64,000 bases of DNA from Betaproteobacteria bacterium (GTDB taxonomy: Bacteria; Pseudomonadota; Gammaproteobacteria; Burkholderiales; SG8-39), in contig JAJDOG010000084.1 in NCBI GenBank assembly GCA_022340285.1, positions 62,001 through 126,000 of the forward strand, written 5' to 3'. A model generated the notes under the pieces. It searched no databases, was not told the origin of the DNA, and was given only the letters and a program-made list of their open reading frames with translations. Shown one piece after another: positions 7,403 through 62,706 of the stretch (position 1 is the first letter of the stretch; each line of letters begins with the position of its first letter). A program made the translations under genes and the position numbers.

Positions 7403-7738
7403 TCACCAACCCATCACCCGGCGCGCCAGGTCGCTCATGCGCTCGGGCGTCCACGGGGGATCCCAGCAGAGGGCGACCTCAACCGGACGGTCGTCGGGCA
7501 GCGCTCCGCCCACCGCGATCCGGATCTCGTCGGCAATCAGCTCGGCCACCGGACATGCGGCGGACGTCATGGTGATCTCCACGTGCACCTGCGACGGCTC
7601 GACGCGCACGCCATACACGAGTCCCACGTCCACCACGCTGAGGCCCATCTCCGGATCAACCACCGTGCCGATCGCCCGCAGCAAGTCGTCGCGCAGCGCC
7701 TCATCCCCCTCGTACGGGATGGTCTCGGCGGCGCTCAT
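7403..7738 (-). CDS. DUF59 / MIP18-family Fe-S assembly factor
   Basis: 111 aa. It is a single DUF59 domain (SufT/PaaD N-terminal type): DDLLRAIGTVVDPEMGLSVVDVGLVYGV at the start, then the reactive-cysteine segment TMTSAACPVAELIADE, then PPWTPERMSDLARR. Proteins of this type help mature iron-sulfur or other metal clusters in the cytoplasm. The start overlaps the nsrR stop by 4 bases (ATGA). In this operon it may repair Fe-S clusters damaged by NO or serve NsrR itself, which is an Fe-S protein; that is inference from position. Confidence 0.88.
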   Translation of the reverse strand: MSAAETIPYEGDEALRDDLLRAIGTVVDPEMGLSVVDVGLVYGVRVEPSQVHVEITMTSAACPVAELIADEIRIAVGGALPDDRPVEVALCWDPPWTPERMSDLARRVMGW

Positions 7739-8187
7739 GCGGACACGCTCCGCGCATCGATGCGGAGAACGCGGGTGAGGGCCACGCGGTTCTGCACCAG
7801 GTCGGCGAGCGTGTGGCTTTCGAGCGCGGCATAGAACGCCTCGACCGCCTCCGCGAGCACGCCGCGCAGCCGGCACACGCGCACGAGGTCGCAAGTGTTC
7901 GACTCGCGGTCGAAGCACTCGGCCGGCATCGCTTCGCCTTCGGTCGATCGGACGACTGCGCCAATATTGATTTCGTGCGGTGGTCGAGCAAGTCCCAGTC
8001 CGCCACCCCTGCCGCGAACGTTAGCGAGCAGGCCCGCCTTGCCCAGCGCATGGACCACCTTCATCAGATGGTTCTCCGAGATGTCGAAGACGCCCGCGAT
8101 CTCGCCGATCGTCGCGCGGCGCCCGGGCGCGGCGGCGAGATACATCAGCACGCGCAGGCTGTAGTCGGTGAACGTCGTGAGCCGCAT
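7735..8187 (-). CDS. nsrR: Rrf2-family NO-sensing repressor NsrR
   Basis: 150 aa. The N-terminal winged helix starts MRLTTFTDYSLRVLMYLA, and the wing GRGGGLGLARPP is typical. Three cysteines at C91, C99 and C105 lie where NsrR and IscR bind their Fe-S cluster; nitrosylation of the cluster releases NsrR from DNA. It is the first gene of the minus-strand operon ending in nnrS, and a matching palindrome lies 18 bases upstream of its start (8205-8227), so it probably represses its own operon. IscR is the alternative, but the NO-response neighbours favour NsrR. Confidence 0.9.
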   Translation of the reverse strand: MRLTTFTDYSLRVLMYLAAAPGRRATIGEIAGVFDISENHLMKVVHALGKAGLLANVRGRGGGLGLARPPHEINIGAVVRSTEGEAMPAECFDRESNTCDLVRVCRLRGVLAEAVEAFYAALESHTLADLVQNRVALTRVLRIDARSVSA

Positions 8188-8251: not shown

Positions 8252-8265
8252 TTGATCTCGGTCAA
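8252..8265 (-). promoter_or_regulatory. DNR/FNR-type box upstream of nsrR
   Basis: TTGAT-CTCG-GTCAA, one mismatch from TTGAT-N4-ATCAA. Its centre is about 42 bases from the transcript start predicted by the TAAGAT -10 at 8223-8228, the normal class II activator distance. The operon would be activated by the Dnr-type regulator at 20.9-21.6 kb and repressed by NsrR. Confidence 0.6.
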
Positions 8266-9443: not shown

Positions 9444-9468
9444 GTTCCGTCTCGGGATGTGCGCGATT

Positions 9469-9482
9469 TTGACATGGATCAA
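9469..9482. promoter_or_regulatory. DNR/FNR-type box in the ctaA / norSY intergenic region
   Basis: TTGAC-ATGG-ATCAA, one mismatch from TTGAT-N4-ATCAA. It lies between divergent genes: 26 bases before the ctaA start and 100 bases before the first gene of the norSY operon. The spacing fits activation of the plus-strand operon; for ctaA the box is so close to the start that it could only repress or be irrelevant. Confidence 0.6.
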
Positions 9483-9581: not shown

Positions 9582-9758
9582 GTGGCCGATCAGAACCAAA
9601 CCAACGCCTACGACGATGTCTACGACGAGCCGGTGCCGATCATGCAGCAGATCATGGACAACCCGTGGATCCTGCTGTTCCTCGGCGTGGTGATACCGAC
9701 CGTGCTGTACCTCATCTGGGGTGTGATGGAGATCATCAGCATCCCGGTCGCGCCCTGA
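9582..9758 (+). CDS. Small single-helix membrane protein upstream of norS
   Basis: 58 aa from GTG 9582, preceded by AGGAGAG at proper spacing. An upstream in-frame start at 9459 would place the DNR box inside the coding region and is rejected. The acidic N-terminus (DDVYDEPVP) is followed by one membrane helix (~residues 30-50). No family recognised. Position just before a CuA subunit II suggests a small accessory subunit of the oxidase-like complex, as many heme-copper enzymes have. Confidence 0.7.
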   Translation: MADQNQTNAYDDVYDEPVPIMQQIMDNPWILLFLGVVIPTVLYLIWGVMEIISIPVAP

Positions 9759-9795: not shown

Positions 9796-10353
9796 ATGAG
9801 CGCGATTCAGCCGCCGGCAAACAGGCTGTGGTGGAAGGAGCCGATCGAGAGAATCGAGATCACCTGGGTCTTGATCGCCTTCGTCTGGAGCATGGTCCTC
9901 TTCTTCATGATGCCGTACTGGCACGTGTTCGGCAGCCAGAATCTCGCGAACGAGGCCTACAAGAACACGCCGGAGAAGTTCACGGCGAAGACCCAGGAGA
10001 TGGTCGACAAATACAAGGTTCGCGAGGAGACCGGCCTCAACGACCAGAAGATCCCCGTGGTGCATCCGCCTGCCGGCGGCGACGTGTACCTGATCGCGCG
10101 CCTGTGGCAATGGTGGCCGATCCTCGAGCTCGAGGCAGGCCAAACCTATCGCCTGCACCTGATGTCGATGGACTGGCTGCACGGATTTTCGCTCCAGCCG
10201 GAGAACATCAACATCGAGGTGCATCCGAACTACGAACACGTGCTCACCGTGCAGCCGACCAAGGCAGGCACCTACTCGATCATCTGCAACGAGTACTGCG
10301 GCCTGAACCATCACACGATGGCGAGCAGGCTGTTCGTCACCGAGAAGAAATAA
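9796..10353 (+). CDS. norS: CuA-containing subunit II of an sNOR-type NO reductase
   Basis: 185 aa. One N-terminal membrane helix (~residues 22-42), then a periplasmic cupredoxin domain with a complete CuA set: H129, C164, E166, C168, H172 and M175 (C-x3-C-x3-H-x2-M). It accepts electrons from a soluble c-type or copper carrier and passes them to subunit I. Order and content (CuA subunit, subunit I, SenC) match the norSY-senC clusters of nitrifying betaproteobacteria. By domain alone it could be a cytochrome c oxidase subunit II; the unusual subunit I next door argues for sNOR. The 14-base gap to norY indicates one operon. Confidence 0.8.
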   Translation: MSAIQPPANRLWWKEPIERIEITWVLIAFVWSMVLFFMMPYWHVFGSQNLANEAYKNTPEKFTAKTQEMVDKYKVREETGLNDQKIPVVHPPAGGDVYLIARLWQWWPILELEAGQTYRLHLMSMDWLHGFSLQPENINIEVHPNYEHVLTVQPTKAGTYSIICNEYCGLNHHTMASRLFVTEKK

Positions 10354-10366
10354 GGGGGGCGCCGCC

Positions 10367-12085
10367 ATGGCCGTCAATCGCATGTTCCGGACCTGTCCGA
10401 CGACAGGCCTGAAGTTCCATCAACCGGCCGAAGCGCTGATACGCTGGAACGCCGTGGTAGGCGTGGTGTTTCTTCTGGTCGGCGGCATCCTCGCGCTGCT
10501 GGTGACCCTGACGCGCTGGCAGGCCGTGCACCTGCTCCCGCCAGACATGTTTTACATGGTGCTGACCGGTCACGGGCTCAACATGCTCGTGTTCTGGATC
10601 ATCTTCTTCGAGATCGCGGTGCTCTACTTCGCGGGCTCGACGCTACTCGGATGCCGGCTGGCGACGCCCAAGGTCGCGTGGGCCGGCTTCTGGCTGATGG
10701 TGATCGGCGGGCTGATGAACAACTACGCGGTGTTCATCCGCGGCGACTCCAGCGTGATGTTCACCTCGTACGCGCCGATGGGTGCGCACTGGAGCTTCTA
10801 TCTCGGCTTGATCCTGTTCGCGGTGGGGGCGCTGATCGCCTGCTTCGTCTTCTTCGGCACGCTCGCGGTCGGCAAGGCGGAGCGCACCTACAACGGCTCG
10901 GTGCCGCTCGTGACCTTCGGCGCGGTCACCGCGGCGATCATCGCGGTGTTCACCATCGCCTCGGGCGCGATCATCCTCATCCCGACCTTCGGCTGGTCGA
11001 TCGGGATGGTGCCTTCCATCGACTCGCTGATGTACCGGCAGATCTGGTGGGCGTTCGGCCACAGCTCGCAGCAGATCAACGTCTCGGCGCACGTCGCAGT
11101 GTGGTACGCCGTCGCCGCGATCGTGTTCGGCGCGAAGCCGATGAGCGAGAAAGTGAGCCGCACCGCGTTCCTGCTCTACATCCTGTTCATCACGCTCGCG
11201 AGCGCGCACCACCTGCTCGCCGACCCGGGTCTGACCTCGAAGTGGAAGATCCTGAACACCAGCTACTTCCTCTACCTGGCCGTGCTCGCGTCGATGGTGC
11301 ACGGGCTCACCGTCCCGGGCTCGATCGAGGTTGCGCAGCGCGCGAAGGGCTTCAACAGGGGGCTGTTCGAATGGCTGCGCAAGGCCCCGTGGGGTAACCC
11401 GGCGTTCTCGGGCGTGTTCATCAGCCTGATCGGCTTCGGATTCCTGGGTGGGATCTCGGGCGTGATCCTGGGGACCGAGCAGCTGAACCTCATCATGCAC
11501 AACACGCTCTACGTGCCGGGGCACTTCCACGCGACCGTGGTGCTGGGGACGTCGCTCGCGTTCATGGCGATCACCTACTTCCTGATCCCGGTGCTGTTCC
11601 GCCGTGAGCTCGCGTTCCCGGGGGTCGCAAAGTGGCAGCCCTACGTGTTCGGGCTCGGCATGGCGATCTTCTCGCTGTTCATGATGGGCGCGGGAACGCT
11701 CGGCGTGCCGCGGCGCCACTGGGATGTGTCGTTCTCGGGCAACCCGCTGGGGTTCGAGTTTCCCGGCACCGCCTGGCTGATGATCGGGCTGCTCGCGATC
11801 GGTGGCCTGCTCGCGATCGTGGGCGGCGCGATGTATCTGCTGGTCACCGTGTACTCGGTGTTCCTCGGCAAGAAGATCGAGACGCCGGGATTCCAGCACG
11901 TGACGGCAAAAGCCGGCATGGCGGCACCTGCGCCGGCCGCGGCACCGCTGACGGGATACGGCAGCTCGGGCCACGCAGCGTCGGCCTCGGGAACGTTCGT
12001 GCTGGCAATGGTGTTCCTGGTGTCCTTCGTGCTGTACTACTTCATCAACTGGAAGTACCTGTCCACCGTCTGGCCGCTCAGGTAA
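10367..12085 (+). CDS. norY: Heme-copper superfamily subunit I with Tyr-to-Gln active site (sNOR-like NO reductase)
   Basis: 572 aa, about thirteen membrane helices. Low-spin and active-site heme ligands are present: H69 (LTGHGLNML), H386 and H388 (PGHFHATV). The helix VI motif, HPEVY in A-type oxidases, is H232-S-S-Q-Q, so the cross-linked active-site Tyr is replaced by Q236; H281-H282 complete the three-His metal site. Loss of the Tyr and of the usual K-channel lysine motif is typical of NO-reducing branches of the superfamily. Together with CuA subunit II and SenC this fits sNOR (NorY), inner membrane, 2 NO to N2O. O2 reduction cannot be excluded. The stop overlaps the first possible start of ctaB. 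Confidence 0.8.
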   Translation: MAVNRMFRTCPTTGLKFHQPAEALIRWNAVVGVVFLLVGGILALLVTLTRWQAVHLLPPDMFYMVLTGHGLNMLVFWIIFFEIAVLYFAGSTLLGCRLATPKVAWAGFWLMVIGGLMNNYAVFIRGDSSVMFTSYAPMGAHWSFYLGLILFAVGALIACFVFFGTLAVGKAERTYNGSVPLVTFGAVTAAIIAVFTIASGAIILIPTFGWSIGMVPSIDSLMYRQIWWAFGHSSQQINVSAHVAVWYAVAAIVFGAKPMSEKVSRTAFLLYILFITLASAHHLLADPGLTSKWKILNTSYFLYLAVLASMVHGLTVPGSIEVAQRAKGFNRGLFEWLRKAPWGNPAFSGVFISLIGFGFLGGISGVILGTEQLNLIMHNTLYVPGHFHATVVLGTSLAFMAITYFLIPVLFRRELAFPGVAKWQPYVFGLGMAIFSLFMMGAGTLGVPRRHWDVSFSGNPLGFEFPGTAWLMIGLLAIGGLLAIVGGAMYLLVTVYSVFLGKKIETPGFQHVTAKAGMAAPAPAAAPLTGYGSSGHAASASGTFVLAMVFLVSFVLYYFINWKYLSTVWPLR

Positions 12086-12099
12086 TGACGGAGGGCGCC

Positions 12100-13029
12100 A
12101 TGCCAGTGCTGTCGAAAGACACGGCAGGTAGATCGCAGGGCGAGGGCCGGCGGCACCCGGTCGCCGCCGCGGCGGCGACGATCGCCGGAGTATTCAAGCT
12201 GCGCATCGGAATCATCATCGGCTTCACCGCCGTCGCCGGCCTCGCGATGACGCCGGGTCCCGCGCTCGAAGCCTGGCGCGTGGTCGTCCTCGGACTCGCG
12301 GTGGTGGTTTCCGCGGCAGCGGCGGGCGGCTTCAACCAGTGGTTCGAGCGCGATCTCGACGCGCGCATGAAGCGCACCCGAAACCGGCCGTTCGTGACCG
12401 GAGCGTTCGCGCATGACTGGCGGTTTCCCGCGCTGCTCGGCGCGCTCACCGTCGCATCGGTCGCGGCCGCGACGCTCGCGACCAATTGGGTCGCCGCGTT
12501 GTACACGTTCCTCGGGGGATTCGTTTACGCAGTCGTCTACACGGTGTGGCTGAAGCGCCGCACCTGGTGGAACATCGTGATCGGCGGGCTCGCGGGCAGT
12601 TTCGCGGTGCTCGCCGGAGCGGCTGCGGTGGCACCCGACAGCCTGCCGGCTGTCCCGCTCGTCCTGGCGGTCGTGCTCTTCCTGTGGACGCCACCGCACT
12701 TCTGGAGCCTGGCGATGGTCTGCCGTGACGACTACGAGGCCGCGGGCGTGCCGATGCTGCCGGTCGTGGTCGGGGATCGGGCCTGCGCGCTGGCGATCCT
12801 TCTGCACACCGTTGCGCTGGTCGGGCTCTCGTTCGTTCCGCTCGCCTACGGGATGGGTTGGATCTACGGAGCCGGCGCCGCGGCGGGCGGTGCGCTCTTC
12901 GTGCTCCTGAGCTTGCGCCTGCTCGCGAATCCGACCCGCAAGCGGGCGCTGGCGAACTTCTTCGCTTCGCTCGTGCAGCTCACTCTGCTCCTCTCGGCAG
13001 GGATCGTCGACGTGGCGCTCGCGGGGTGA
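12100..13029 (+). CDS. ctaB: Heme O synthase (protoheme IX farnesyltransferase)
   Basis: 309 aa from ATG 12100, chosen because GGAGGG lies at ideal spacing; an ATG at 12085 overlapping the norY stop (TAATG) is an alternative. Polytopic UbiA-type prenyltransferase with signature NQWFERDLDARMKRTRNRP and second Asp-rich site near FWSLAMVCRDDYEAAGVPMLPVV. It makes heme O from protoheme, the substrate of heme A synthase. Its place inside the norSY operon, with two ctaA homologues nearby, suggests that the NorY-type enzyme uses an a- or o-type heme. Confidence 0.95.
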   Translation: MPVLSKDTAGRSQGEGRRHPVAAAAATIAGVFKLRIGIIIGFTAVAGLAMTPGPALEAWRVVVLGLAVVVSAAAAGGFNQWFERDLDARMKRTRNRPFVTGAFAHDWRFPALLGALTVASVAAATLATNWVAALYTFLGGFVYAVVYTVWLKRRTWWNIVIGGLAGSFAVLAGAAAVAPDSLPAVPLVLAVVLFLWTPPHFWSLAMVCRDDYEAAGVPMLPVVVGDRACALAILLHTVALVGLSFVPLAYGMGWIYGAGAAAGGALFVLLSLRLLANPTRKRALANFFASLVQLTLLLSAGIVDVALAG

Positions 13030-13044
13030 AGTGAGGTGTGACAC

Positions 13045-13899
13045 GTGACGGCAAGCACCTCAGCCGCTGCGCGGCGAAGGTTTTCGCTGGTTTGCGCGCT
13101 CGCGCTTTGGGTTACCCCGGCAATCGCTGGCAACGTCGCCGGCGGCGCACTCGGCGGTAAGTCGTTCGATCCGGACCAGGCACTGCAATTCAGTCAGAGC
13201 GTGATCGGCAAGCCGATCGGCGACTACGCGTTCCGCGACCGCACGGGGAAACCGGTGCGGCTCGCCGACTACCGGGGAAAGCCGCTGGTGGTCAGTTTCG
13301 TCTATACCGGCTGTTTCTCCGCGTGTCCGACCACCACCGCGCGCCTCGCCAAGGCGATTCGCGCCGCGCAGCGCACGCTCGGCGCGGGTACGTTCAACGT
13401 GGTGTCGATCGGGTTCAATCTCCCGTACGACTCGCCCGAGTCGATGCGCGACTTTGCGCGGCGCTACGGCATCAACGACCCGCAGTGGAAGTTCCTCTCG
13501 CCGTTCGAGAAGCAGATTCCCGCGCTCGTCGCAGACTTCGGATTCCAGTACGTGGCCACGCCCGCCGGGTTCGACCACGTCACGCAGACGACCATCGTCG
13601 ATGGCGAGGGCAGGGTATTCCGCCAGGTCTACGGCGAGGAGTTCGCGCTGCCGCTCTTCATCGACCCGCTGCAGCAGCTCATCACCGGAAAGGCGCAGCC
13701 GGTGCAGGGCATCGGCGACGCGATCGAGCGGATCCGGCTCCTCTGCACGGTGTACGACCCACGCGCGGGCGTCTACCGCTTCCAGTGGTCAGTGGTAAGC
13801 TCGATCGTCATGTTCTTCCTGATGTTGGTCGGCGGGATCTGGTTCCTGTGGCACGAGATCCGCAAGCGCCGGCGGTTCGATCGGGCGGCCGCCGGCTGA
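13045..13899 (+). CDS. senC: SCO1/SenC copper chaperone
   Basis: 284 aa, GTG start after GAGGTG. An N-terminal signal (~residues 11-28) is followed by a thioredoxin-like SCO domain with the copper motif C90-FSA-C94-P and the distal ligand H178 (FDHVTQTT). Unusually it also has a C-terminal membrane helix (~residues 250-272) and a basic tail, so it is anchored at its C-terminus. SCO proteins load the CuA site of subunit II. Last gene of the norSY operon; the next promoter starts downstream at ~13.96 kb. Confidence 0.9.
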   Translation: MTASTSAAARRRFSLVCALALWVTPAIAGNVAGGALGGKSFDPDQALQFSQSVIGKPIGDYAFRDRTGKPVRLADYRGKPLVVSFVYTGCFSACPTTTARLAKAIRAAQRTLGAGTFNVVSIGFNLPYDSPESMRDFARRYGINDPQWKFLSPFEKQIPALVADFGFQYVATPAGFDHVTQTTIVDGEGRVFRQVYGEEFALPLFIDPLQQLITGKAQPVQGIGDAIERIRLLCTVYDPRAGVYRFQWSVVSSIVMFFLMLVGGIWFLWHEIRKRRRFDRAAAG

Positions 13900-13955: not shown

Positions 13956-13998
13956 TTGATGCACATCAAGGTGCGGCCGGCGCGCGGTTCATTAGCAT
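13956..13998 (+). promoter_or_regulatory. Perfect DNR/FNR box and -10 element of the cytochrome b operon
   Basis: TTGAT-GCAC-ATCAA (13956-13969) matches the consensus at every position. A -10-like TAGCAT at 13993-13998 predicts a transcript start near 14004, placing the box centre at about -41.5, the standard class II distance. The operon from 14084 to 20708 therefore should be switched on by the Dnr-type regulator under low oxygen or NO. Confidence 0.75.
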
Positions 13999-14083: not shown

Positions 14084-16021
14084 GTGTTGAAGCTCCTCCA
14101 GCGGGCAGGACAGTGGACGTTCCATCGTGCGGACGGCCTGTTCACCCGCGTCTTCGGCGAGCATCTCAACCCGCTCTTCCACCTCGGCGCGCTTTCCTAC
14201 TTCATGTGCTGGGTGGTAGTCGTCTCCGGCCTGGTCGTCTACGCGTTCTTCAAGACCGGCGTGCGGGAAGCCTACGACTCGGTGGAGTACATCACGCAGC
14301 AGCAGTGGTGGTTCGCCGGGATCATGCGCAGCGTGCACCGGTATGCATCCGACGCGATGGTGCTCACGATGCTGCTGCACCTGGGGCGTCATTTCTTCTT
14401 CGACCACTACCGGAGCTTCCGCTGGTTTTCCTGGGTGAGCGGCGTGATCGTGCTCTGGCTGGTGTACGCGAGCGGTATCAACGGATACATGCTGCCCTGG
14501 GACCGGCTCGCCCAGTTCGTCACCGTCACGACCGCGGAATGGTTCGACACGCTCCCGGTGTTCGGCGGCACGCTGATCCGCAATTTCATCTTCGAGGGCG
14601 CGGTGAACGACCGGCTCTTTTCGCTGCTCTCGTTCATCCACATCGGGCTGCCGCTCGGCGTGCTGCTGGTCCTGTGGATACACACCCAGCGCGTTCCGGG
14701 CGCGAAGATCATGCCGCCGCGCACGCTCGCGCTCTACGGACTCGGCGCGCTGATCATCCTCTCGCTCGTCAAACCGGTGCAAAGCCAGGGCGGGCAGGCG
14801 GATCTCTCCGTCGCCGTCACGCTGATCGAGCTCGACTGGTTCTACCTTCCCGTGTACGCGCTCCTGCAGCGCTGGGCGCCCGCCGAGGTGTGGTATCTCG
14901 TCGGCGGCCTGACGCTCATCGCGCTTGCCACGCCCTGGCTGCCTCCCAAGCGCTCGCGCAAGGAAGCGTTTCATATGATGATCCACCCGGACAACCGGAT
15001 CATCGCCATCCGCGACGGGGAGTTCGTGCTGGACGCGGCGCTGCGCGAGGACGTGAGAGTCCCCTTCGACTGCCGCAGCGGCGGCTGTGGAATGTGCAAG
15101 GCGACCCTCCTGCAGGGCGAGGTCGACTACGGCCTGTACCAGCCTGCGTTCCTCACCGATGCGGAGCGCGCACAGGGAAAGGTGTTGCTCTGCGCGTGCA
15201 CGCCGAAGTCGGACATCGAGGTCGAGTACGTTCCGGTCGAGACGCCGGGGAAGATCGCCGTGGCAGTGCACACTGCGCGGGTCGTCAGGATGAACAGGCT
15301 CTCGCACGACGTGATGCAGGTCTTCCTCAAGTGCGAAGGCGAGGAGACGCCGCGCTTCTACGCCGGCCAGTACATCGACATCCTCCTGCCCGACGGCGAG
15401 AAGCGCAGCTTCTCCTTCGCCACCGCGCCGCACGAGCGCGAGCTGATCGAGCTGCAGATCCGGCTCGTGCCCGGCGGGCGGTTCACCCCTCACGTTTTCA
15501 ACGAGATGAAGGTCGGCGACACGGTGCGCTTCGAGGGACCGCTCGGCTCGTTCTTCCTGCGCGAGGACAGCGAGAAGCCCATCATCTTCGTCGCCGGAGC
15601 CACCGGATTCGCGCCCGTGAAAAGCATGGTCGAGCATGCGATCCACACCGGCTTCCGGCGCAAGATGTTTCTCTACTGGGGCGTGCGCAGCCTGCGCGAC
15701 CTGTACCTGCCCGATCTGCCGGGCGAGTGGGAACGGCAGAGCTCGAGCTTCAAGTTCGTGCCCGTGCTTTCGGATCCGCAGCCCGAAGACCACTGGGAGG
15801 GTCGGACCGGCCTCGTTCACGAGGCGATACTCGCCGACTTCCCCGACCTCTCCGACCATCAGATCTACGCGTGCGGGTCGGTCGCGATGGTGCAGGCGGC
15901 GCGGCCCGCCTTCCTTGCAAAGGGCATGAGCGATTACGACTGCTTCTCTGATGCATTCCGGTTTGCGCCGCGCACCGAGGCGCGCTCCGCCGAGATGGTG
16001 CGCCTGGGAGGCACGGCGTGA
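14084..16021 (+). CDS. Cytochrome b - [2Fe-2S] ferredoxin - NAD(P)H:flavin reductase fusion
   Basis: About 645 aa from GTG 14084 (preceded by GGAG); a frame open from 13940 would contain the promoter and is rejected. Order: (1) four-helix cytochrome b N-domain (~1-270) with paired heme-b histidines (RSVHRYASD...HLGRH and FIHIGLPL...WIHTQ); (2) plant-type [2Fe-2S] domain (~295-385), CRSGGCGMCK and LLCACTP; (3) ferredoxin-reductase FAD domain (RSFSFATAP) and NAD domain (FVAGATGFAPVKSMVEHA) to ~630, like phenol hydroxylase P5-type reductases. It looks like a single-polypeptide NAD(P)H-to-heme/quinone oxidoreductase. I do not recognise this architecture as a named enzyme. First gene of a DNR-controlled operon; the GTGA overlap couples it to the next. 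Confidence 0.85.
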   Translation: MLKLLQRAGQWTFHRADGLFTRVFGEHLNPLFHLGALSYFMCWVVVVSGLVVYAFFKTGVREAYDSVEYITQQQWWFAGIMRSVHRYASDAMVLTMLLHLGRHFFFDHYRSFRWFSWVSGVIVLWLVYASGINGYMLPWDRLAQFVTVTTAEWFDTLPVFGGTLIRNFIFEGAVNDRLFSLLSFIHIGLPLGVLLVLWIHTQRVPGAKIMPPRTLALYGLGALIILSLVKPVQSQGGQADLSVAVTLIELDWFYLPVYALLQRWAPAEVWYLVGGLTLIALATPWLPPKRSRKEAFHMMIHPDNRIIAIRDGEFVLDAALREDVRVPFDCRSGGCGMCKATLLQGEVDYGLYQPAFLTDAERAQGKVLLCACTPKSDIEVEYVPVETPGKIAVAVHTARVVRMNRLSHDVMQVFLKCEGEETPRFYAGQYIDILLPDGEKRSFSFATAPHERELIELQIRLVPGGRFTPHVFNEMKVGDTVRFEGPLGSFFLREDSEKPIIFVAGATGFAPVKSMVEHAIHTGFRRKMFLYWGVRSLRDLYLPDLPGEWERQSSSFKFVPVLSDPQPEDHWEGRTGLVHEAILADFPDLSDHQIYACGSVAMVQAARPAFLAKGMSDYDCFSDAFRFAPRTEARSAEMVRLGGTA

Positions 16022-16521
16022 ACACGATTCTTCGCTATGCCGCCCAGATCGCGCTCTACGTCGCGTTCGGCGCAGCTCTCGGCTACTTCTCCAGCTACCC
16101 CGTGTTTCAGGCGCTGCCGCCAGACCAGGCGCTCGTGCGGCTGTCATTCAGCCACGGCGCGAAGCCGATCTCACCCTGCCGCGAGCGCACGCCCGAAGAG
16201 CTCGCGAAGCTGGCTCCGAACATGCGCGTCAAGCTCGACTGTCCGCGCGAGCGCGCGCCGGTGCAAGTCGAGATCGAGATGGACGGTAAGCCGCTCTACC
16301 AGATCACCGCGCGGCCGGCGGGGCTCAAGCGCGACGGCGCGTCCACCGTGTATCGCCGCCTGCCAGTCGTCGCGGGCAAGCACACCTTCAAGGCTCGCCT
16401 GGCCGACGGACCGGACGGCAAGTTCACCTACGTTTCCGACGCGACGATCGACCTCGCGCCGGGCAAGGTGCTCGTGATCGACTTCAATGCCGGCAAGGGC
16501 GGGTTCCAGTTCGTGCACTGA
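16018..16521 (+). CDS. Membrane-anchored periplasmic protein of unknown function
   Basis: 167 aa, GTG overlapping the previous stop. One N-terminal hydrophobic segment (~residues 8-26) acts as signal anchor; the rest is a hydrophilic, beta-rich periplasmic domain with two cysteines (SPCRER and KLDCPRER) that could form a disulfide. No family recognised. Being sandwiched between two cytochrome b fusions with overlapping ends, it is likely a subunit or assembly factor of the same complex. Confidence 0.7.
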   Translation: MNTILRYAAQIALYVAFGAALGYFSSYPVFQALPPDQALVRLSFSHGAKPISPCRERTPEELAKLAPNMRVKLDCPRERAPVQVEIEMDGKPLYQITARPAGLKRDGASTVYRRLPVVAGKHTFKARLADGPDGKFTYVSDATIDLAPGKVLVIDFNAGKGGFQFVH

Positions 16522-16528
16522 GCAAGAC

Positions 16529-18139
16529 ATGTCCGTCGACAGGCAAGCCGCGCCAGGAGGCGCCCCATCCCGCACGATCTGGCGTGCAACGTGGCGAGCA
16601 TGGGAGCGGGCCGAGCTCGCGTTCGATGCGGTGTTCGGCGCAGACGGGAATCCCCTGCGGCACCTCGGTGCGCTCGGATTTCTTTTCTTCTGGGTGATGC
16701 TCGGCACGGGCCTCTATCTCTACATCGTGTTCGAAGGCACCGCCGAAGGCGCGTACCGGTCGATCGATGCGCTGTCAGCCGCTGCGCTCGGGTCGATAAT
16801 CCGGAGCGTGCACCGCTACGCCGCCGACGGATTCGTCGTGGTGACGGCGCTCCATCTTGTGCGCGAGCTCCTCGCCGGCCGCTTCACCGGCGCGCGCTGG
16901 TTCGCATGGGTCACCGGCGTGGTCCTGATCTGGTTCCTGTACGCGTCGGGCATCGGCGGCTACTGGCTGGTCGGCGACCAGCTTGCCCAGTGGAGCCTGA
17001 CCGCCACCGCGGAGTGGTTCGACGCGTTGCCGCTTTTCGGGCTGTCGATGGTGCGAAATTTTCTCTCGAGCGGACAGATGACCGACCGCTTCTATGCGCT
17101 GCTTTCGTTCCTGCACGTCGCGATCCCGCTCACTTTGCTCCTCGGCATGTGGCTGCACATTCAGCGGGTGACACGGCCCAACGTGACCCCGAGCCGCGCG
17201 CTCATGCTCGGGACCTTTGCAACGCTCATCGCGCTTTCACTCATCAAGCCGGTGACGAGCCTGCTGCCGCCGGACTACGGCGCGGTGCCGGCCACGATTC
17301 CGGTCGATTGGTACTACCTCTTCATCCATCCGCTGATGGACGCCACATCGCCGGCCGCGCTGTGGACGATGGTGATGCTCGCCACGCTGGTTCTCGCGGC
17401 GCTGCCGTGGCTGGTGCGCGTGTCGCACGAGCCGGTGGCGCAGGTCGATCCGGCGAACTGCAATGGCTGCGGCCGCTGCTTTGCCGACTGCCCGTTCGGC
17501 GCCGTCGTGGTGGAACCTCGTACCGACGGCCGGCGCGGCCCCGGGCTCGCGCGGGTGCTGCCCGAGCTCTGCGTGAGTTGCGGCATCTGCGCGGGTGCGT
17601 GTCCGTCTTCCACGCCGTTCCGCACCGTTGCCGAGCTCGTCACGGGCATCGACATGCCGCAACGCTCACTTGCCGAGATGCGCTCCCGAATGGAGCGCGC
17701 GCTCGCCGGCCTCGAGGGCAGTCCGCGGATGCTGGTATTCGGGTGCGACCGCGCCGCCGACGCACGCGTGCTCGAGCGGCCCGATACCGGCGTGATCAGC
17801 CTGCTCTGCACCGGCCAGTTGCCGCCGTCGTTCATCGACTACGCGCTGCGCAGCGGCGCCGACGGCGTGCTCGTCACCGGCTGTGCCGAAGACGGCTGCT
17901 ACTATCGGCACGGAAATACCTGGACCGCGCAGCGCATTGCCGGCGTCCGCGAGCCGCATCTGCGGGTGTCGGTGCCGCGTGAACGGGTGCGGGTGGTCTG
18001 GGCGGCGGAGGACGACATGGCGAATCTGCGCGCAGCGGTCGAGCACTTTCGCGCCGCGCTCACCAACCTGCCACCGGCAGAGTCGCGGCACGCCGCGCGT
18101 ACCAAGCGCCCCAGGCGCAAGGAGGTCGCCCTTGGCTGA
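16529..18139 (+). CDS. Cytochrome b - 2[4Fe-4S] ferredoxin - MvhD/FlpD fusion
   Basis: 536 aa. Order: (1) cytochrome b N-domain (~30-270) with bis-His helices (RSVHRYAAD...HLVREL and LSFLHVAIP...WLHIQR); (2) an extra helix pair near 270-310; (3) two [4Fe-4S] motifs, CNGCGRCFADCP and CVSCGICAGACP (~312-370); (4) an MvhD/FlpD-type domain (~400-480) with VFGCDRAAD, LLCTGQLPPSF and GCAEDGCYYRHGN. In methanogens and sulfate reducers such domains pass electrons between hydrogenase or formate dehydrogenase and heterodisulfide reductase. Linking one to a membrane cytochrome b suggests a route between low-potential Fe-S carriers and quinone. Function unproven; partner unknown. Confidence 0.85.
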   Translation: MSVDRQAAPGGAPSRTIWRATWRAWERAELAFDAVFGADGNPLRHLGALGFLFFWVMLGTGLYLYIVFEGTAEGAYRSIDALSAAALGSIIRSVHRYAADGFVVVTALHLVRELLAGRFTGARWFAWVTGVVLIWFLYASGIGGYWLVGDQLAQWSLTATAEWFDALPLFGLSMVRNFLSSGQMTDRFYALLSFLHVAIPLTLLLGMWLHIQRVTRPNVTPSRALMLGTFATLIALSLIKPVTSLLPPDYGAVPATIPVDWYYLFIHPLMDATSPAALWTMVMLATLVLAALPWLVRVSHEPVAQVDPANCNGCGRCFADCPFGAVVVEPRTDGRRGPGLARVLPELCVSCGICAGACPSSTPFRTVAELVTGIDMPQRSLAEMRSRMERALAGLEGSPRMLVFGCDRAADARVLERPDTGVISLLCTGQLPPSFIDYALRSGADGVLVTGCAEDGCYYRHGNTWTAQRIAGVREPHLRVSVPRERVRVVWAAEDDMANLRAAVEHFRAALTNLPPAESRHAARTKRPRRKEVALG

Positions 18140-19547
18140 TGCGCCCGCAGGGGTCGCACGGTACTTCGGGAAGTGGATCTCGCTCGCGCGCGGGGAGTAC
18201 CGGCTCGCGGTGCCGGACGGCGCGCGCGCGAAGCTCGCGCGCGGCTGGCTGCAGCTCGCGCTTGCCGCACTCATCGGCGCCGGCGTGTACTCGATTCTGC
18301 TCGTCGTCTCGCGCACCCCGGGTCTCGCCGGGCTCTTCCCGGTCGAGAACTTCTTCCGCGTCGCGCTCGTCGTGCACGTGGATCTTTCCGTGCTAGTGTG
18401 GTTCGTTGCGATCGCCGGCGTGTTCTGGAGCATCAATTCCACGCCGCGCTGGACGCCGCTCGGCTGGGCGGCATTCGCGCTGGCTGTCGCCGGCACTGTC
18501 CTGCTCGCCGTGGCGCCGTTCACCCAGCGTGCCGCGGCGGTGATGGCGAACTACGTACCGGTGCTCGACGGCGCGGTGTTCCTCGCCGGGCTGACGGCGA
18601 TCGCCGGCGGCATGGCCATGCTGGTTCTACGCGGGATGGTAGCGGTGCCGCGCGTCGGCACGCGCCTCGACGGCGCTGCGGCACTGCGCTTCGGACTGAA
18701 CAGCTCGGTGGTTGCAACCGCGATCGCGCTCGCCGCATTCGCGTGGTCGTGGCTCGACGTTCCGCGCGGTCTCGAAGGCAAGGCCTATTACGAGCTTCTC
18801 TTTTGGGGCGGTGGGCACGTGCTCCAGTTCACCTGGACACTGCTCATGATGGTCTCCTGGCTGTGGCTCGCTTCGGCCATCGGTGCACCGATTCCGCTGA
18901 CGCCGCGCGTCGCCGTGCTGCTCTTCGCCGTGGCACTCGTGTCCGTCTTTTTGACACCAGTCATCTATCTCGCCTATGCGGTGCCGTCCGTCGAGCACTA
19001 TCGGCTGCTCACCTGGCTGATGCGCTTCGGCGGCGGCCTGGCGATGCTGCCGATGACGCTCGCAGTACTGGTCGCGCTGACCGGTGCGCGGACCACCGAC
19101 GAGACACAACGACCGCTGCGTGCCGCGCTCGCGTCGTCTCTGGTCCTGTTCGCTTTCGGCGGACTAATCGGATTCATGATTCAGGGCTCGAACGTGCGGA
19201 TCCCGGCGCATTACCACGGGTCGATCGTCGGGATCACGCTCGCGTTCATGGGCGTCGTGTATCACCTGCTGCCGCAGCTCGGCTACCGCACCCCGATCGG
19301 GCGCCTCGCGACATGGCAGCCGTACGTCTACGGGGCCGGACAGCTCATGCACGTTGCCGGCCTGCTCTGGTCCGGCGGCTACGGCGTGCAGCGCAAGGTC
19401 GCGGGCAGCGAGCAGGTGTTGCGCACCACGGGCGAGGTGATCGGCATGGGCTTCATGGGGCTCGGCGGACTGATCGCGATCGTCGGCGGCGTGCTCTTTC
19501 TCGTGGTCGCGTTTCGCTGCATGGCGGGCGGGCGGGAGCGCCGATGA
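18132..19547 (+). CDS. Divergent heme-copper-oxidase-like subunit I with incomplete metal-ligand set
   Basis: 471 aa from TTG 18132, chosen because GGAGGT sits five bases upstream; it overlaps the previous gene by 8 bases. About twelve helices. Heme-type ligands: H82 (LVVHVDLSVLVW), H360 and H362 (IPAHYHGSIVGIT), typical of cbb3/NOR-like subunit I. Helix VI has GGGH229-VLQ232. In helix VII the usual HH pair is reduced to VEH289Y, so a standard three-His CuB/FeB site is not evident. It could be an alternative NO reductase branch with changed ligands, or a heme-only electron-transfer subunit. No CuA or NorC-type partner is adjacent; the cytochrome b fusions may take that role. Confidence 0.75.
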   Translation: MADAPAGVARYFGKWISLARGEYRLAVPDGARAKLARGWLQLALAALIGAGVYSILLVVSRTPGLAGLFPVENFFRVALVVHVDLSVLVWFVAIAGVFWSINSTPRWTPLGWAAFALAVAGTVLLAVAPFTQRAAAVMANYVPVLDGAVFLAGLTAIAGGMAMLVLRGMVAVPRVGTRLDGAAALRFGLNSSVVATAIALAAFAWSWLDVPRGLEGKAYYELLFWGGGHVLQFTWTLLMMVSWLWLASAIGAPIPLTPRVAVLLFAVALVSVFLTPVIYLAYAVPSVEHYRLLTWLMRFGGGLAMLPMTLAVLVALTGARTTDETQRPLRAALASSLVLFAFGGLIGFMIQGSNVRIPAHYHGSIVGITLAFMGVVYHLLPQLGYRTPIGRLATWQPYVYGAGQLMHVAGLLWSGGYGVQRKVAGSEQVLRTTGEVIGMGFMGLGGLIAIVGGVLFLVVAFRCMAGGRERR

Positions 19548-20485
19548 GACTGGTACGAGCGATGGTCTGGGTCTCGGCGGTCCTGGTGCTGGTGGTGAAC
19601 GGCGCGAGCGCCTATGTCCGGCTCGCGCAGCAGGGCGTGGGTTGCGAACCGTGGCCGCAATGCTACGGCCGCACTGCGCCGCAGGACGCGGGCGCGGTAC
19701 CCGCTGCGGATTCTCCGCACTTCTACGTGCGGGCAACGCATCGGCTGGCGGCCAGCCTGGCCGGCGTGCTGTTTCTCGCGATCACGTTCCTCGGCTGGAA
19801 CGCGTGGCGAAGCGCCGCGCCGCGCGTGGCCGCGATCAAGCTGCTCGTGCTTGCGGCCTTTCTCGCCTGGCTCGGCCGATACACGCCCTCGCTCGTCCCT
19901 GCGGTCACGATCGGTAACGTCGTAGCGGGAATGGCGACGTTCGGCGTGCTCGCCTGGCTCGCCGCATGGCGTCCGGATTCCGGCGGGACGTCGATCCGTG
20001 ACCTCCTTCCCCGCGGACCCGCGCTGCTGATCTCGGCGGCACTCGGCGTTGCGGTGATCCAAATCGCGCTCGGCGCGCTCGCGAACGCGCGCTACGTGGC
20101 AGCTGCCTGCGAGGGTTTTCCATCGTGCGGCGGAGCGTGGTGGCCGCACGCGGGTGGCGCCGGATTCGATATCTTCACCGCCACGGCCGTGCCGCTGACT
20201 GCGGTCGAGGAGGCGGGGCGCCAGGCCGTGCAGCTTGCCCACCGCCTCGGCGCGGTGTTCTTCGCCGCGCTGGCAGTCGCGGTCGCTGTCGCCGCGCTCC
20301 GGCGTGCAAACGGGCCGCACGCGGCCGCAATCCTGCTTCTCGCGCTGGTCGCCGGGCAGGTCGCCCTCGGCGCGGTCATCGTGAGTGCGGGGGCGCCGCT
20401 CGCGACGGCCGTCGCGCATAACGTGATCTCGAGCCTCGTGCTCGGCACGCTGGCGTGGTTGCATAGTCGGGCGCAACAAGCATAG
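19544..20485 (+). CDS. Second heme A synthase homologue (CtaA/COX15), Cys-pair type
   Basis: 313 aa, ATGA overlap with the preceding gene. Eight membrane helices. Unlike the copy at 8.3-9.4 kb it has cysteine pairs in both extracytoplasmic loops (GCEPWPQCYG and CEGFPSCGG), the arrangement in Bacillus-type and many bacterial CtaA proteins where the disulfide is functional. Histidines RATHRLAAS, QLAHRLGAVFF and VAHNVISS mark the heme sites. It probably supplies a modified heme to the HCO-like protein encoded just upstream, or makes heme A under different conditions from the first copy. Confidence 0.85.
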   Translation: MRLVRAMVWVSAVLVLVVNGASAYVRLAQQGVGCEPWPQCYGRTAPQDAGAVPAADSPHFYVRATHRLAASLAGVLFLAITFLGWNAWRSAAPRVAAIKLLVLAAFLAWLGRYTPSLVPAVTIGNVVAGMATFGVLAWLAAWRPDSGGTSIRDLLPRGPALLISAALGVAVIQIALGALANARYVAAACEGFPSCGGAWWPHAGGAGFDIFTATAVPLTAVEEAGRQAVQLAHRLGAVFFAALAVAVAVAALRRANGPHAAAILLLALVAGQVALGAVIVSAGAPLATAVAHNVISSLVLGTLAWLHSRAQQA

Positions 20486-20495
20486 GAGCCAACCG

Positions 20496-20708
20496 ATGAT
20501 CGTCATCGATGCACGCGAGCTCGAGCCTCCGGAACCGTTCGAGCGTGTGATGGAGGCGCTCAGCGACCTGACGCCGGGCGAGCGGATCAAGCTGATCCTT
20601 AACCGTGAGCCGCATCCGCTCTACCGCGTGCTGGAGCGCAACGGTTATACGTACGATCCGACCTGGTTCGACGACGGGCGCTGCGAGATCCTGATTTGGC
20701 AGAAGTGA
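20496..20708 (+). CDS. DUF2249 domain protein
   Basis: 70 aa. It begins IVIDARELEPPEPFERVMEAL and has the DUF2249 pattern LTPGERIKLILNREPHPLYRVLE. These small cytoplasmic proteins often occur with hemerythrins and denitrification genes; biochemical role unknown. Ten bases after the CtaA homologue, so probably the last gene of the DNR-driven operon, followed by hairpins at 20.74-20.84 kb. Confidence 0.85.
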   Translation: MIVIDARELEPPEPFERVMEALSDLTPGERIKLILNREPHPLYRVLERNGYTYDPTWFDDGRCEILIWQK

Positions 20709-20862: not shown

Positions 20863-21555
20863 TCACAGGGCGTACTGCTGGAGTCGCGCGACGCTCGGAA
20901 TCGCGACGGTCCGTCCCTGCACCTCGATGAGCTCCTCGGCGGCGAGCTCGTGCAGGATGCGCGAGAAGTGTTCCTGCGTGAGGTTCAAGCGTGACGCGAC
21001 GATGCCCTTGGTCGTCGGCAACGTCACCTCGATCGAATCCACGTCCTCGCTTTCGCGCCGGCAGTCGCGCAGCAGGTAGCCGATCACCCGCTGGGTGCCG
21101 GAGCGCATCGAGTAGGCCTCGAGGTCCGACATCAGGTGGTGCAGACGACGCGAGAGGCCGGCGATGATGCGACGCGCGAAGCGTGGGTCACGGTCGAGCT
21201 CGTCGAACACCGCCTCCTTCTGCACGTAGAGCAGGAGCGTGTCGGCGAGCGCCTGAGCAGTGACGACATGAGGGCGTTCCATGAACATGACCGCCTCGCC
21301 GAAGCTTCCGCCCTGGCCGATGATTTCGACGACCTTCTCGTCGCCTTTCGAGGAGATGAAGGCGAGCTTCACCTGACCGTAGACGACGAGGTGGAAGCCG
21401 TTCGCGGGATCGCCGCGATGGAAGAGGATCTCGCCGCGCTCCGCGCGCACCTGCCGCGTGTGCCTGGCGATACGCTCGAGCTCCTCGGGCGCAAGCTCCT
21501 TGAAGAGCGGAATATTGGCGAGAAACGCCAACGGTTTGATCGGTGCTGTCGCCAT
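20863..21555 (-). CDS. dnr: Crp/Fnr-family regulator, Dnr/NnrR-like
   Basis: 230 aa. The N-terminal cyclic-nucleotide-binding-like domain (~15-130) lacks the N-terminal cysteine cluster of FNR/ANR, so it does not sense O2 by an Fe-S cluster; Dnr proteins of this build bind heme and sense NO. The HTH (~170-210) has NLTQEHFSRIL, the E-xx-SR recognition signature that reads TTGAT half-sites, matching the many TTGAT-N4-ATCAA-like boxes in this window. It is therefore the likely activator of norSY, the cytochrome b operon, nsrR-nnrS and the formate dehydrogenase. The gene symbol is by similarity. Confidence 0.85.
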   Translation of the reverse strand: MATAPIKPLAFLANIPLFKELAPEELERIARHTRQVRAERGEILFHRGDPANGFHLVVYGQVKLAFISSKGDEKVVEIIGQGGSFGEAVMFMERPHVVTAQALADTLLLYVQKEAVFDELDRDPRFARRIIAGLSRRLHHLMSDLEAYSMRSGTQRVIGYLLRDCRRESEDVDSIEVTLPTTKGIVASRLNLTQEHFSRILHELAAEELIEVQGRTVAIPSVARLQQYAL

Positions 21556-47622: not shown

Positions 47623-47665
47623 TTGACCTCGGTCAAGCGTGCGCCTTCGCGCTTCGCGATAACAT
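47623..47665 (+). promoter_or_regulatory. DNR/FNR-type box and -10 of the formate dehydrogenase operon
   Basis: TTGAC-CTCG-GTCAA (47623-47636), a symmetric variant of TTGAT-N4-ATCAA, is followed by TAACAT (47660-47665). This predicts a start near 47672 with the box at about -42. The spacing supports a real class II promoter for the downstream genes (start 47713). Confidence 0.55.
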
Positions 47666-47712: not shown

Positions 47713-49470
47713 ATGAACGACCGCGTCGAGCGCGGGGCAGTCCCGCTCAAGGAGATCAGGTTCCGGGCCACCCCGAAGGGCCGCCAGGTGGAACCGCAGG
47801 CTCTCGCCGACGTTCGGCGCCTGCTCGATGGCGCACCGCGCCGCCGCGATCTCCTCATCGAGCACTTGCATCGCATCCAGGATCGCTACGGACAGCTCGC
47901 CGATCGGCATCTCGTCGCGCTGGCGCAGGAAATGAGCATGGCGCTCGCCGAGGTCTACGAGGTCGCGACCTTCTATCATCATTTCGACGTGGTGCAGGAC
48001 GGTTCGGACGCGCCGCCTGCAATCACCGTGCGGGTCTGCGACTCAGTGGCCTGCGAGCTGGCCGGCGCGCGCGAGCTCCTGCAAAGGCTGCCCGGAATTC
48101 TCGGCAAGGGCGTGCGCGTTCTACCGGCGCCGTGCATCGGACGTTGCGAGGCGGCACCCGCCGTGGCGGTGGGCCGCCATCCCGTGTTGCGCGCGACGCC
48201 CGACGCCGTGAAGGCGCTTGTCGCGAAGCGCTCCGTCGAACATCCGCCCGCGACACCCGTCAAGAATGCGCGTGAGATCAACCCCGCGGTCTACGCACCC
48301 GCGGACCGGGTGAGCCCCGGGTTCATCGACTATAAGGCTTATCGCGCATCGGGCGGGTACCGGCTGATCGCCGAGTGCCTGCGTGGCAAGCGCACGCGCG
48401 AGGACGTCACGAAAACGATGGAGGACGCGGGCCTGCGGGGGCTGGGCGGCGCGGGATTTCCCGCAGGGCGCAAATGGCGCATCGTCGCGGCAGAACCGAC
48501 CCCGCGGCTGATGGCGGTGAACATCGACGAGGGCGAACCGGGTACGTTCAAGGATCGCTATTACCTCGAGCGCGACCCGCATCGGTTCCTCGAAGGCATG
48601 CTCGTCGCCGCGTGGGCCGCCGGCGTCGGCGAGATCTATGTTTACCTGCGCGACGAGTATGCGGGCTGTCGGGCGATTCTCGAGCAGGAGCTGGCGAAGC
48701 TCGTCGCGGATCCGCCGTGCGCACTGCCGCCGATCCAGCTGCGACGCGGCGCGGGGGCGTACATCTGCGGCGAGGAATCGGCCATGATCGAATCGATCGA
48801 AGGCAAGCGCGGCATGCCGCGCTTGCGGCCACCCTATGTCGCGCAGGTCGGGCTCTTCGACTACCCGACACTCGAGCACAACATGGAGACCGTGTACTGG
48901 GTGCGCGAGATCATCGAGCGAGGCGCGGACTGGTTCGCCGGCCACGGGCGCCATGGACGGAAAGGGTTGCGCTCGTTTTCGGTCTCGGGTCGGGTGAAGC
49001 GCCCGGGCGTGCACCTCGCCCCGGCGGGGATCACGGTGCGCGAGCTGATCGACGAGCATTGCGGCGGAATGCTCGAGGGCCACACGTTCTACGCATACCT
49101 TCCGGGCGGTGCTTCAGGTGGGATCCTGCCCGCCTCCATGGGCGACATTCCGCTCGATTTCGACACGCTCAACGAGCACGGCTGCTTCATCGGTTCCGCG
49201 GCGATCGTGATCCTGTCGCAACGCGACCGCGCGACGGACGCGGCGCGCAACCTCATTCGATTCTTCCGCGACGAGTCGTGCGGGCAATGCACGCCGTGTC
49301 GCGTCGGCACGGCGAAGGCGCTCGCGCTCATGGAGCGCGAGAAGTGGGACACGGCGCTGCTCGAGGAGCTCTGCCAGGCGATGGGCGACGCCTCGATCTG
49401 CGGTCTCGGGCAGGCGGCTCCGAATCCCATCCGGTGCGTGGTGAAATACTTTCCGCACGAGCTGGAATGA
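47713..49470 (+). CDS. fdsB: NAD-linked formate dehydrogenase diaphorase subunit, NuoE-NuoF fusion
   Basis: 585 aa. The N-terminal NuoE/FdsG-like part (~1-165) holds a thioredoxin-like [2Fe-2S] site (CDSVAC...CIGRC). The NuoF-like part (~200-585) has the FMN/NADH site GLRGLGGAGFPAGRKW and NIDEGEPGTFKDRYYLE, and a [4Fe-4S] motif CGQCTPCRVG with a distal Cys. It passes electrons from formate to NAD+. In Fds enzymes NuoE and NuoF are usually separate; here they are one chain. Operon with the molybdenum subunit 53 bases downstream. Symbol by similarity. Confidence 0.9.
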   Translation: MNDRVERGAVPLKEIRFRATPKGRQVEPQALADVRRLLDGAPRRRDLLIEHLHRIQDRYGQLADRHLVALAQEMSMALAEVYEVATFYHHFDVVQDGSDAPPAITVRVCDSVACELAGARELLQRLPGILGKGVRVLPAPCIGRCEAAPAVAVGRHPVLRATPDAVKALVAKRSVEHPPATPVKNAREINPAVYAPADRVSPGFIDYKAYRASGGYRLIAECLRGKRTREDVTKTMEDAGLRGLGGAGFPAGRKWRIVAAEPTPRLMAVNIDEGEPGTFKDRYYLERDPHRFLEGMLVAAWAAGVGEIYVYLRDEYAGCRAILEQELAKLVADPPCALPPIQLRRGAGAYICGEESAMIESIEGKRGMPRLRPPYVAQVGLFDYPTLEHNMETVYWVREIIERGADWFAGHGRHGRKGLRSFSVSGRVKRPGVHLAPAGITVRELIDEHCGGMLEGHTFYAYLPGGASGGILPASMGDIPLDFDTLNEHGCFIGSAAIVILSQRDRATDAARNLIRFFRDESCGQCTPCRVGTAKALALMEREKWDTALLEELCQAMGDASICGLGQAAPNPIRCVVKYFPHELE

Positions 49471-49523
49471 CCCGCTTGACGGGTTCAAAATAGCAGGCGC
49501 ACAGCAGTAGCACAGGAGTAGGA

Positions 49524-62070: not shown

Positions 62071-62706
62071 ATGTCGGAAGCGATTGAAGCGATCAAGGAC
62101 TGGGTAATCCGCGGCAAACGCAAGGAGGCCATCGAGGAGACGCGTAGCGCGCTTGCGGCTGGCGTCGACCCCGGGATGATCATGAAGGATGCCTTGATCG
62201 CCGCCATGTCCGAGGTTGGCCGGCGGTATTCGAGCGGCGAATTCTTCCTGCCCCAGATGATGATCGCGGCGCGTGCGATGACCGAGGTCATCCCGGTGCT
62301 CAAGCCGCACCTGATCGGCGAGGCGGCGGAGAAGCGCGGCAAGGCGGTGGTCGGCACCGTGGCAGGCGATTTCCACGATATCGGCAAGAACATCGTGAAG
62401 ATGATGCTGGAGGGTGCCGGCTACGACGTGGTGGATCTCGGCGTGGACGTCGCGCCGGACAAGTTCGTCGAGGCGGTGCAAAAAGAGGCGCCGAATTTCG
62501 TCCTGATGAGCGCGCTCATCACACTCACGATGGAAAGCATGCGACGCACGATGGAAGCGCTGAATGCGGCCGGCGTTCGCACCAAGGTGAGGGTGGGCGT
62601 GGGCGGCGCGCCGCTCACGCAGAAGTTCGCAGACGAGATCGGCGCCGACTTCTACGGCGAGGACGCCTACGCGTGCGTCCAGACCTGCAATCAGCTACTG
62701 CACTGA
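62071..62706 (+). CDS. Corrinoid protein (MtaC/MtbC/MtvC type)
   Basis: 211 aa. N-terminal helical cap (~1-85) and C-terminal cobalamin-binding Rossmann domain with D100-F-H102-DIG (axial ligand H102), then SALITLTMESM and VGVGGAPLTQKFADEIGAD. It shuttles a methyl group between substrate methyltransferase and tetrahydrofolate methyltransferase. It is separate from the corrinoid domain fused to the CmuA-like protein, so the island has two corrinoid carriers. Confidence 0.93.
   Translation: MSEAIEAIKDWVIRGKRKEAIEETRSALAAGVDPGMIMKDALIAAMSEVGRRYSSGEFFLPQMMIAARAMTEVIPVLKPHLIGEAAEKRGKAVVGTVAGDFHDIGKNIVKMMLEGAGYDVVDLGVDVAPDKFVEAVQKEAPNFVLMSALITLTMESMRRTMEALNAAGVRTKVRVGVGGAPLTQKFADEIGADFYGEDAYACVQTCNQLLH

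Follow-up and report, generated by a model that had tools for sequence, protein, structure and literature searches.

A cytochrome b-ferredoxin-FlpD fusion encoded in the eNOR-type nitric oxide reductase operon of a betaproteobacterium

The window analyzed here is a 64,000 nt stretch of a betaproteobacterial genome (contig JAJDOG010000084.1, positions 62,001 to 126,000 of the forward strand), which we examined on the basis of sequence, a structure model and gene neighbourhood. It contains an operon for an eNOR-type nitric oxide reductase, to which the fusion gene described below belongs. The operon lies on the + strand downstream of a perfect FNR/Dnr-type box (TTGACATGGATCAA, 9469-9482, + strand) and is headed by the gene for a small one-helix protein (9600-9758, start approximate; the longest reading frame opens at 9459 and overlaps the box). 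Next come the adjoining genes for eNOR subunit II, with its CuA domain (CNEYCGLNHHTM, 9796-10353), and subunit I, a haem-copper protein with a GHSSQQ motif carrying Gln for the oxidase Tyr (10367-12085), and then those for the haem o synthase CtaB (12085-13029, TIGR01473 above cut-off) and a SCO/SenC copper chaperone (13045-13899). A second perfect FNR/Dnr-type box (TTGATGCACATCAA, 13956-13969, + strand) occupies the gap ahead of the cytochrome b genes. These comprise a cytochrome b-[2Fe-2S]-FAD/NAD(P)H reductase fusion (14084-16021, hereafter the paralogue; start set from homologues, frame open from 13940) and, following the gene for a 167 aa partner protein with a single membrane helix at its N-terminus and a beta-sandwich predicted to be periplasmic (16018-16521), a fusion of cytochrome b, two [4Fe-4S] motifs and a FlpD domain (16529-18139, hereafter the fusion), defined by its open reading frame, Pfam matches, alignments and a structure model. 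Further downstream lie genes for a second, degenerate haem-copper oxidase subunit I-like protein (18132-19547, inferred TTG start), a CtaA/COX15-like haem A synthase (19547-20485) and a DUF2249 protein (20496-20708), facing a convergent gene for a Crp/Fnr-family regulator resembling Dnr and FtrB (20863-21555, - strand). The degenerate haem-copper protein retains His in helices II, VI (GGGHVLQF) and X (AHYHG) and lacks the helix VII His pair, so that it would have no normal CuB site.

Replacement of the cross-linked Tyr of oxidases by Gln in subunit I is the accepted mark of eNOR (PMC8756737), and the eNOR operon of subtype ba3-a1 combines such a subunit I with a CuA-bearing subunit II and SCO (PMC8756737, PMC6431628, PMC8879329). 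Judged by this Gln, the enzyme encoded by the operon is a putative NO reductase. No second NO reductase was recognised in the genome, whose other detected haem-copper genes are limited to an aa3-type oxidase (GHPEVY, HH), a gene apparently split over two contig ends and the degenerate gene. The same contig carries nirS about 5 kb before the window start and about 15 kb from the subunit I gene, bearing out the description of the host as a denitrifier in the first-pass annotation. Enzymes of the eNOR type, often mis-annotated as cytochrome oxidases, are a recently recognised source of N2O and have reportedly been characterised by Murali et al. in 2024.

FNR/Dnr-type sites are overrepresented in the window, with 14 boxes observed at no more than one mismatch against 2.4 expected. 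A perfect box at 8252-8265 precedes the gene for an Rrf2-family regulator (7738-8184, - strand), for which the best models are RirA and NsrR, both below cut-off. At the same threshold, 55 of 77 related loci have a box ahead of the gene for the CuA subunit, compared with 3 of 75 for ctaB and 2 of 90 for SCO. Another perfect box (47623-47636, + strand) is placed just ahead of a molybdenum formate dehydrogenase operon (47713-52334), suggesting that formate dehydrogenase is controlled together with denitrification. Towards the end of the window, a gene for a corrinoid protein like MtgC/MtbC (62071-62706, + strand) lies near a DctM transporter and B12-binding proteins, a neighbourhood that hints at methylamine or betaine demethylation.

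The fusion gene runs on the + strand from an ATG at 16529 to a stop at 18139 and encodes 536 aa; the longest reading frame sharing this stop starts at 16487 and encodes 550 aa, and the Pfam residue numbers given here refer to this longer frame. Pfam identifies, in order, a Cytochrome_B domain (residues 60-226, 71.3 bits versus a cut-off of 27.2), a pair of 4Fe-4S motifs (residues 317-375, above cut-off) and a FlpD domain (PF02662, residues 419-528, 69.6 bits versus a cut-off of 22.3), in agreement with the first-pass annotation, which had assigned a cytochrome b, two [4Fe-4S] clusters and an MvhD/FlpD domain to a single protein with exact coordinates. None of the 15 Pfam matches is to a FixG-type (CcoG/FixG) domain. 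An AlphaFold2 model of the entire chain has a mean pLDDT of 92 and a pTM of 0.89.

The first part of the protein matches cytochromes b6 and b. Structure comparison aligns residues 25-300, which comprise helices A to F together with the Qo-motif loop, with bc1 cytochrome b (Z up to 25.0, rmsd 2.6, 256 aligned residues). The pairs H95/H109 and H196/H210 are each spaced by 14 residues, as for two b haems. Within the Qo-like loop, D260-W261 is invariant in 58 diverse sequences, and profile-to-sequence alignment places the DW[FY] of the family opposite the PVWY of proteobacterial bc1. The PF00032 domain extends into the paralogue of one relative (2.8e-6), and the ExtP b-type cytochrome model NF040969 scores 96.5 bits against the fusion, under its cut-off of 290. 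In the structure model, helix F (residues 275-295) is the last membrane helix and leads into the iron-sulfur domains; by analogy with bc1, the portion following helix F would face the cytoplasm.

No Rieske protein or cytochrome c1 is encoded in the operon, and neither a bc1 cytochrome b nor a Rieske N-terminal domain nor an NrfD-type protein turned up in a search of the whole assembly. Three congeners searched possess both bc1 cytochrome b and NrfD. With 120 contigs in the assembly and one haem-copper gene seemingly divided between contig ends, the missing bc1 is most simply, and probably, explained by an assembly gap; were bc1 truly missing, the cytochromes b of the operon would be the sole ones of their kind in the organism.

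Among NCBIfam models, the C-terminal arm scores best with HdrA2, of which it matches the final 206 positions (571-776 of 777) at 98-99 bits, far below the cut-off of 1100 for that model. Arms of this type are otherwise known from methanogen-type electron-bifurcating enzymes. The FlpD part matches the solved MvhD/FlpD chains 5odc_D, 7bkb_F and 8rvu_F (E 1.6e-13 to 7e-11). Its first loop is shortened, so that the canonical CxxC (CNWC) is cut to one Cys, and the four invariant cysteines of the domain (406, 427, 452 and 457) would suffice for one [2Fe-2S] cluster.

Alignment of 58 diverse homologues (41-82% identical) shows H95, H109, H196 and H210 as invariant columns, together with eight cysteines of the ferredoxin motifs and four of the FlpD domain. 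Across 118 sequences, each of these sixteen predicted haem and cluster ligands is conserved to 99% or more, and all are invariant in ten close relatives. The first-pass annotation had named two outcomes that would count against it, loss of the fusion in relatives and degenerate cysteine motifs in the MvhD part. Neither was seen: the cysteines are retained at the level just given, and in a sample of 299 genomes of the phylum, each of the 36 matches from genomes other than the own one spans both cytochrome and arm. With its predicted cofactors bound, the protein would connect a docking domain in the cytoplasm, by way of three iron-sulfur clusters and without interruption, to two membrane-spanning haems. 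Internal stops occur in some relatives, mostly in the variable C-terminal tail beyond all ligands. The frame breaks in one genome (G001) affect four adjacent genes together and hence look like assembly errors; we rejected their interpretation as pseudogenes. The fusion is present in the cultured relatives Ramlibacter lithotrophicus, Herbaspirillum sp. ST 5-3 and Piscinibacter caeni. In a Defluviimonas plasmid record it is annotated as 'cytochrome b N-terminal domain-containing protein' and its partner as 'hypothetical protein'.

In the partner protein, H46, C54 and C75 are nearly invariant and several Arg are conserved. It matches no Pfam family above cut-off, searches against PHROGs and PDB returned nothing useful, and Foldseek yielded weak beta-sandwich matches only; identification as FixH/CcoH was dropped on these results. 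In one genome (L025), the partner is read in a single frame with the fusion. Directly after the partner gene, a hemerythrin-family gene is present at three loci (L087:12043-12444, L099:12074-12472 and L162:14095-14499) from Alphaproteobacteria and one gammaproteobacterium, all without the NAD(P)H paralogue.

The paralogue is 42% identical to the fusion within the cytochrome part, and its arm matches oxygenase reductases such as BenC and MmoC, enzymes that normally oxidise NAD(P)H. The 33 paralogue representatives in the tree form one clade (support 98/97), and a single exchange of the arm followed by stable keeping of both forms therefore explains the data. Among the 299 genomes sampled, a full paralogue was found in the own genome only, making the FlpD form the more widespread of the two.

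To place the fusion in its genomic context, we scanned one genome per species for 84,980 species, which returned at least 564 relatives of the query, some of them relatives of the paralogue because the probes lay in the cytochrome part. The best 80 of these relatives were kept, yielding 47 loci with at least 7 kb of flanking sequence on each side. Within this long-flank set, the partner protein adjoins the fusion at all 47 loci, and eNOR subunits I and II are encoded at 45, as are SCO at 46, ctaB and the NAD(P)H paralogue at 39 each, the small head protein at 45, the degenerate haem-copper protein at 39 and the Crp/Fnr regulator at 15. Since the long-flank loci belong to the nearest relatives, the sample of 299 phylum genomes weighs more. 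There, 33 genomes encode the fusion and 29 eNOR; 28 encode both, one encodes eNOR alone and five the fusion alone. The co-occurrence spans ten families (Fisher p 4e-33, kinship ignored). The eNOR-only genome and the five fusion-only genomes are all draft assemblies, and four of the latter five are 69%-82% complete. A full-length fusion in a proteobacterial genome may serve as a marker that usually predicts eNOR (28/33 in the sample).

The arrangement varies at some loci. Members of one family-level group (f55) frequently encode the fusion-partner pair next to nirS or haem d1 genes and eNOR elsewhere, and two Accumulibacter loci have no eNOR near the fusion, so that the fusion may be tied to denitrification in general. 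Four individual loci (L127, L133, L134 and L139) carry fusion and partner without eNOR nearby, the first three adjoining nirS or haem d1 genes; at L133 and L139, apparent molybdopterin oxidoreductase, ferredoxin and NrfD-like genes were also seen by eye beside the fusion. Another family (f47; loci L129, L130 and L146) has two tandem copies of the fusion in one operon instead of one, which branch as two sister groups in the tree. Outside the phylum, where sampling covered plasmids only, eNOR-like operons of Thermus and Thermomicrobium plasmids encode a GHGAQQ subunit I and a CuA subunit II, and the fusion is found neither near these operons nor elsewhere on the plasmids. It follows that eNOR itself can do without the fusion module, which is an addition seen in Proteobacteria and not a core subunit of every eNOR.

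The first-pass annotation had envisaged the protein as a route between low-potential carriers and the quinone pool, with formate dehydrogenase or an Hdr-like enzyme as the possible source. The general outline stands, in that a conserved FlpD-cytochrome b fusion fits a role in exchanging electrons with soluble carriers at one end and with the quinone pool or the periplasmic side at the other; the suggested partners are not supported. The formate dehydrogenase of the window was rejected as electron partner, being encoded in its separate operon together with its own NAD-linked, NADH-dehydrogenase-type FMN subunit. An HdrABC-type partner was likewise rejected: the genome encodes neither HdrA2 nor a second FlpD domain, and the search for hdrABC-like genes proposed in that annotation returned a single HdrA-like gene, an unlinked 360 aa reading frame. 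This frame (C120:93234-94283; L157, L161) is possibly of the sHdr sulfur-oxidation type. In solved complexes, FlpD/MvhD bridges hydrogenase or formate dehydrogenase and HdrABC, a family precedent for docking of the arm on one such specific enzyme, and the formate dehydrogenase operon shares with eNOR a perfect FNR box; set against the gene content of the genome, and with no hydrogenase, formate dehydrogenase or Hdr genes in the conserved neighbourhoods of the loci inspected, we regard such docking as quite improbable.

Our preferred reading, to which we give about an even chance, is that the fusion is a denitrification-specific accessory of eNOR in Proteobacteria, probably acting as a transmembrane electron conduit. 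The protein would combine a bc1-type cytochrome b, with two b haems and a periplasmic Qo-like loop and lacking the Rieske/cytochrome c1 side, with a cytoplasmic HdrA2-type arm bearing two [4Fe-4S] clusters and the [2Fe-2S] FlpD domain. A soluble cytoplasmic carrier would dock on the FlpD arm and pass electrons via the [4Fe-4S] clusters to haem bH. From there they may reduce quinone and/or move on through haem bL towards the periplasm, the predicted location of the partner, and would support NO reduction by eNOR. The sister cytochrome b would do likewise for NAD(P)H in Betaproteobacteria and some Gammaproteobacteria, and the NAD(P)H-oxidising type of its arm favours cytoplasmic electron entry in both proteins. 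Since eNOR in Proteobacteria is nearly always accompanied by the fusion, the latter is probably a missing electron-transfer part of the eNOR step of denitrification. A more specific proposal, possible but on balance unlikely, is a Rieske-less cytochrome b complex that would deliver electrons from ferredoxin, through the FlpD arm, or from NAD(P)H, through the paralogue, to quinone or the periplasm for NO reduction, bypassing the path from complex I to complex III. If true, this would constitute a new respiratory entry point built from bc1 and HdrA2 parts.

The main rival to an electron conduit is a biogenesis factor, in which the fusion, its partner and the paralogue move reducing power across the membrane for cofactor assembly in eNOR (CuA, the metal of the active site, and the synthesis of haem A by CtaA) and perhaps in NirS. 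We consider this plausible because the assembly genes adjoin, the operon being rich in them (ctaB, SCO, ctaA), yet rather unlikely overall. The membrane iron-sulfur protein CcoG, together with CcoH, serves cbb3 oxidase and offers an analogy; the single membrane helix, predicted periplasmic beta-sandwich and conserved His and Cys of the partner would fit, as would the position of the fusion-partner pair beside nirS/haem d1 genes in other genomes. However, a metal reductase would not need a complete cytochrome b of the bc1 type that conserves its Qo-like loop, Pfam does not recognise the partner as FixH/CcoH, the fusion has no FixG-type domain, and the module is missing from the Thermus and Thermomicrobium operons. 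The direction of flow might also be the reverse, with quinol oxidised at the Qo-like site, one electron passing to a periplasmic high-potential acceptor (cytochrome c or CuA) and the other via the b haems and the iron-sulfur arm to a low-potential cytoplasmic carrier, in a Rieske-less form of bifurcation. The invariant DW of the Qo loop, the full two-haem chain and a cytoplasmic low-potential-type arm drawn from a family of bifurcating enzymes are consistent with this scheme, but we regard it as improbable. CuA apart, the operon encodes neither a Rieske protein nor any other known high-potential acceptor, and on textbook potentials electron transfer from ubiquinol to a +250 mV acceptor would not release enough energy to reduce ferredoxin or NAD+, which the membrane potential would render harder still; the arm type of the paralogue, moreover, normally oxidises NAD(P)H.

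In the literature searched, which covers the work on eNOR incompletely, we found no passage describing the fusion gene. Within that same literature the building blocks are known, and their combination, the near-constant tie to eNOR in Proteobacteria and the partner protein are undescribed. If the fusion is indeed a regular companion of eNOR in Proteobacteria, an undescribed component would be involved in supplying electrons to a widespread NO reductase or in maturing it, and the fusion would be a clear case of transfer of an HdrA2-type arm to a respiratory cytochrome from a soluble flavin enzyme. Together with its paralogue, the fusion would represent a natural swap of arms, FlpD versus NAD(P)H reductase, on one cytochrome core.

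Among known systems, the operon of the fusion resembles the known eNOR operon in the Gln of subunit I, the CuA subunit II and SCO. With the cytochrome b of complex III, the fusion shares helices A-F, two predicted bis-histidine haem sites and a PEWY-type Qo motif, but it stops after helix F and lacks helices G-H. The paralogue has the same cytochrome core and DW loop, with the same partner encoded next door, and differs in its cytoplasmic arm, which consists of [2Fe-2S] and FAD/NAD reductase domains in place of the two [4Fe-4S] motifs and FlpD. HdrA2, in turn, ends like the fusion in a tandem of two [4Fe-4S] motifs followed by a FlpD/MvhD domain, whereas the fusion has a shorter FlpD loop with one CxxC Cys missing and, instead of the flavin-containing bifurcating core of HdrA2, carries a cytochrome b in that place.
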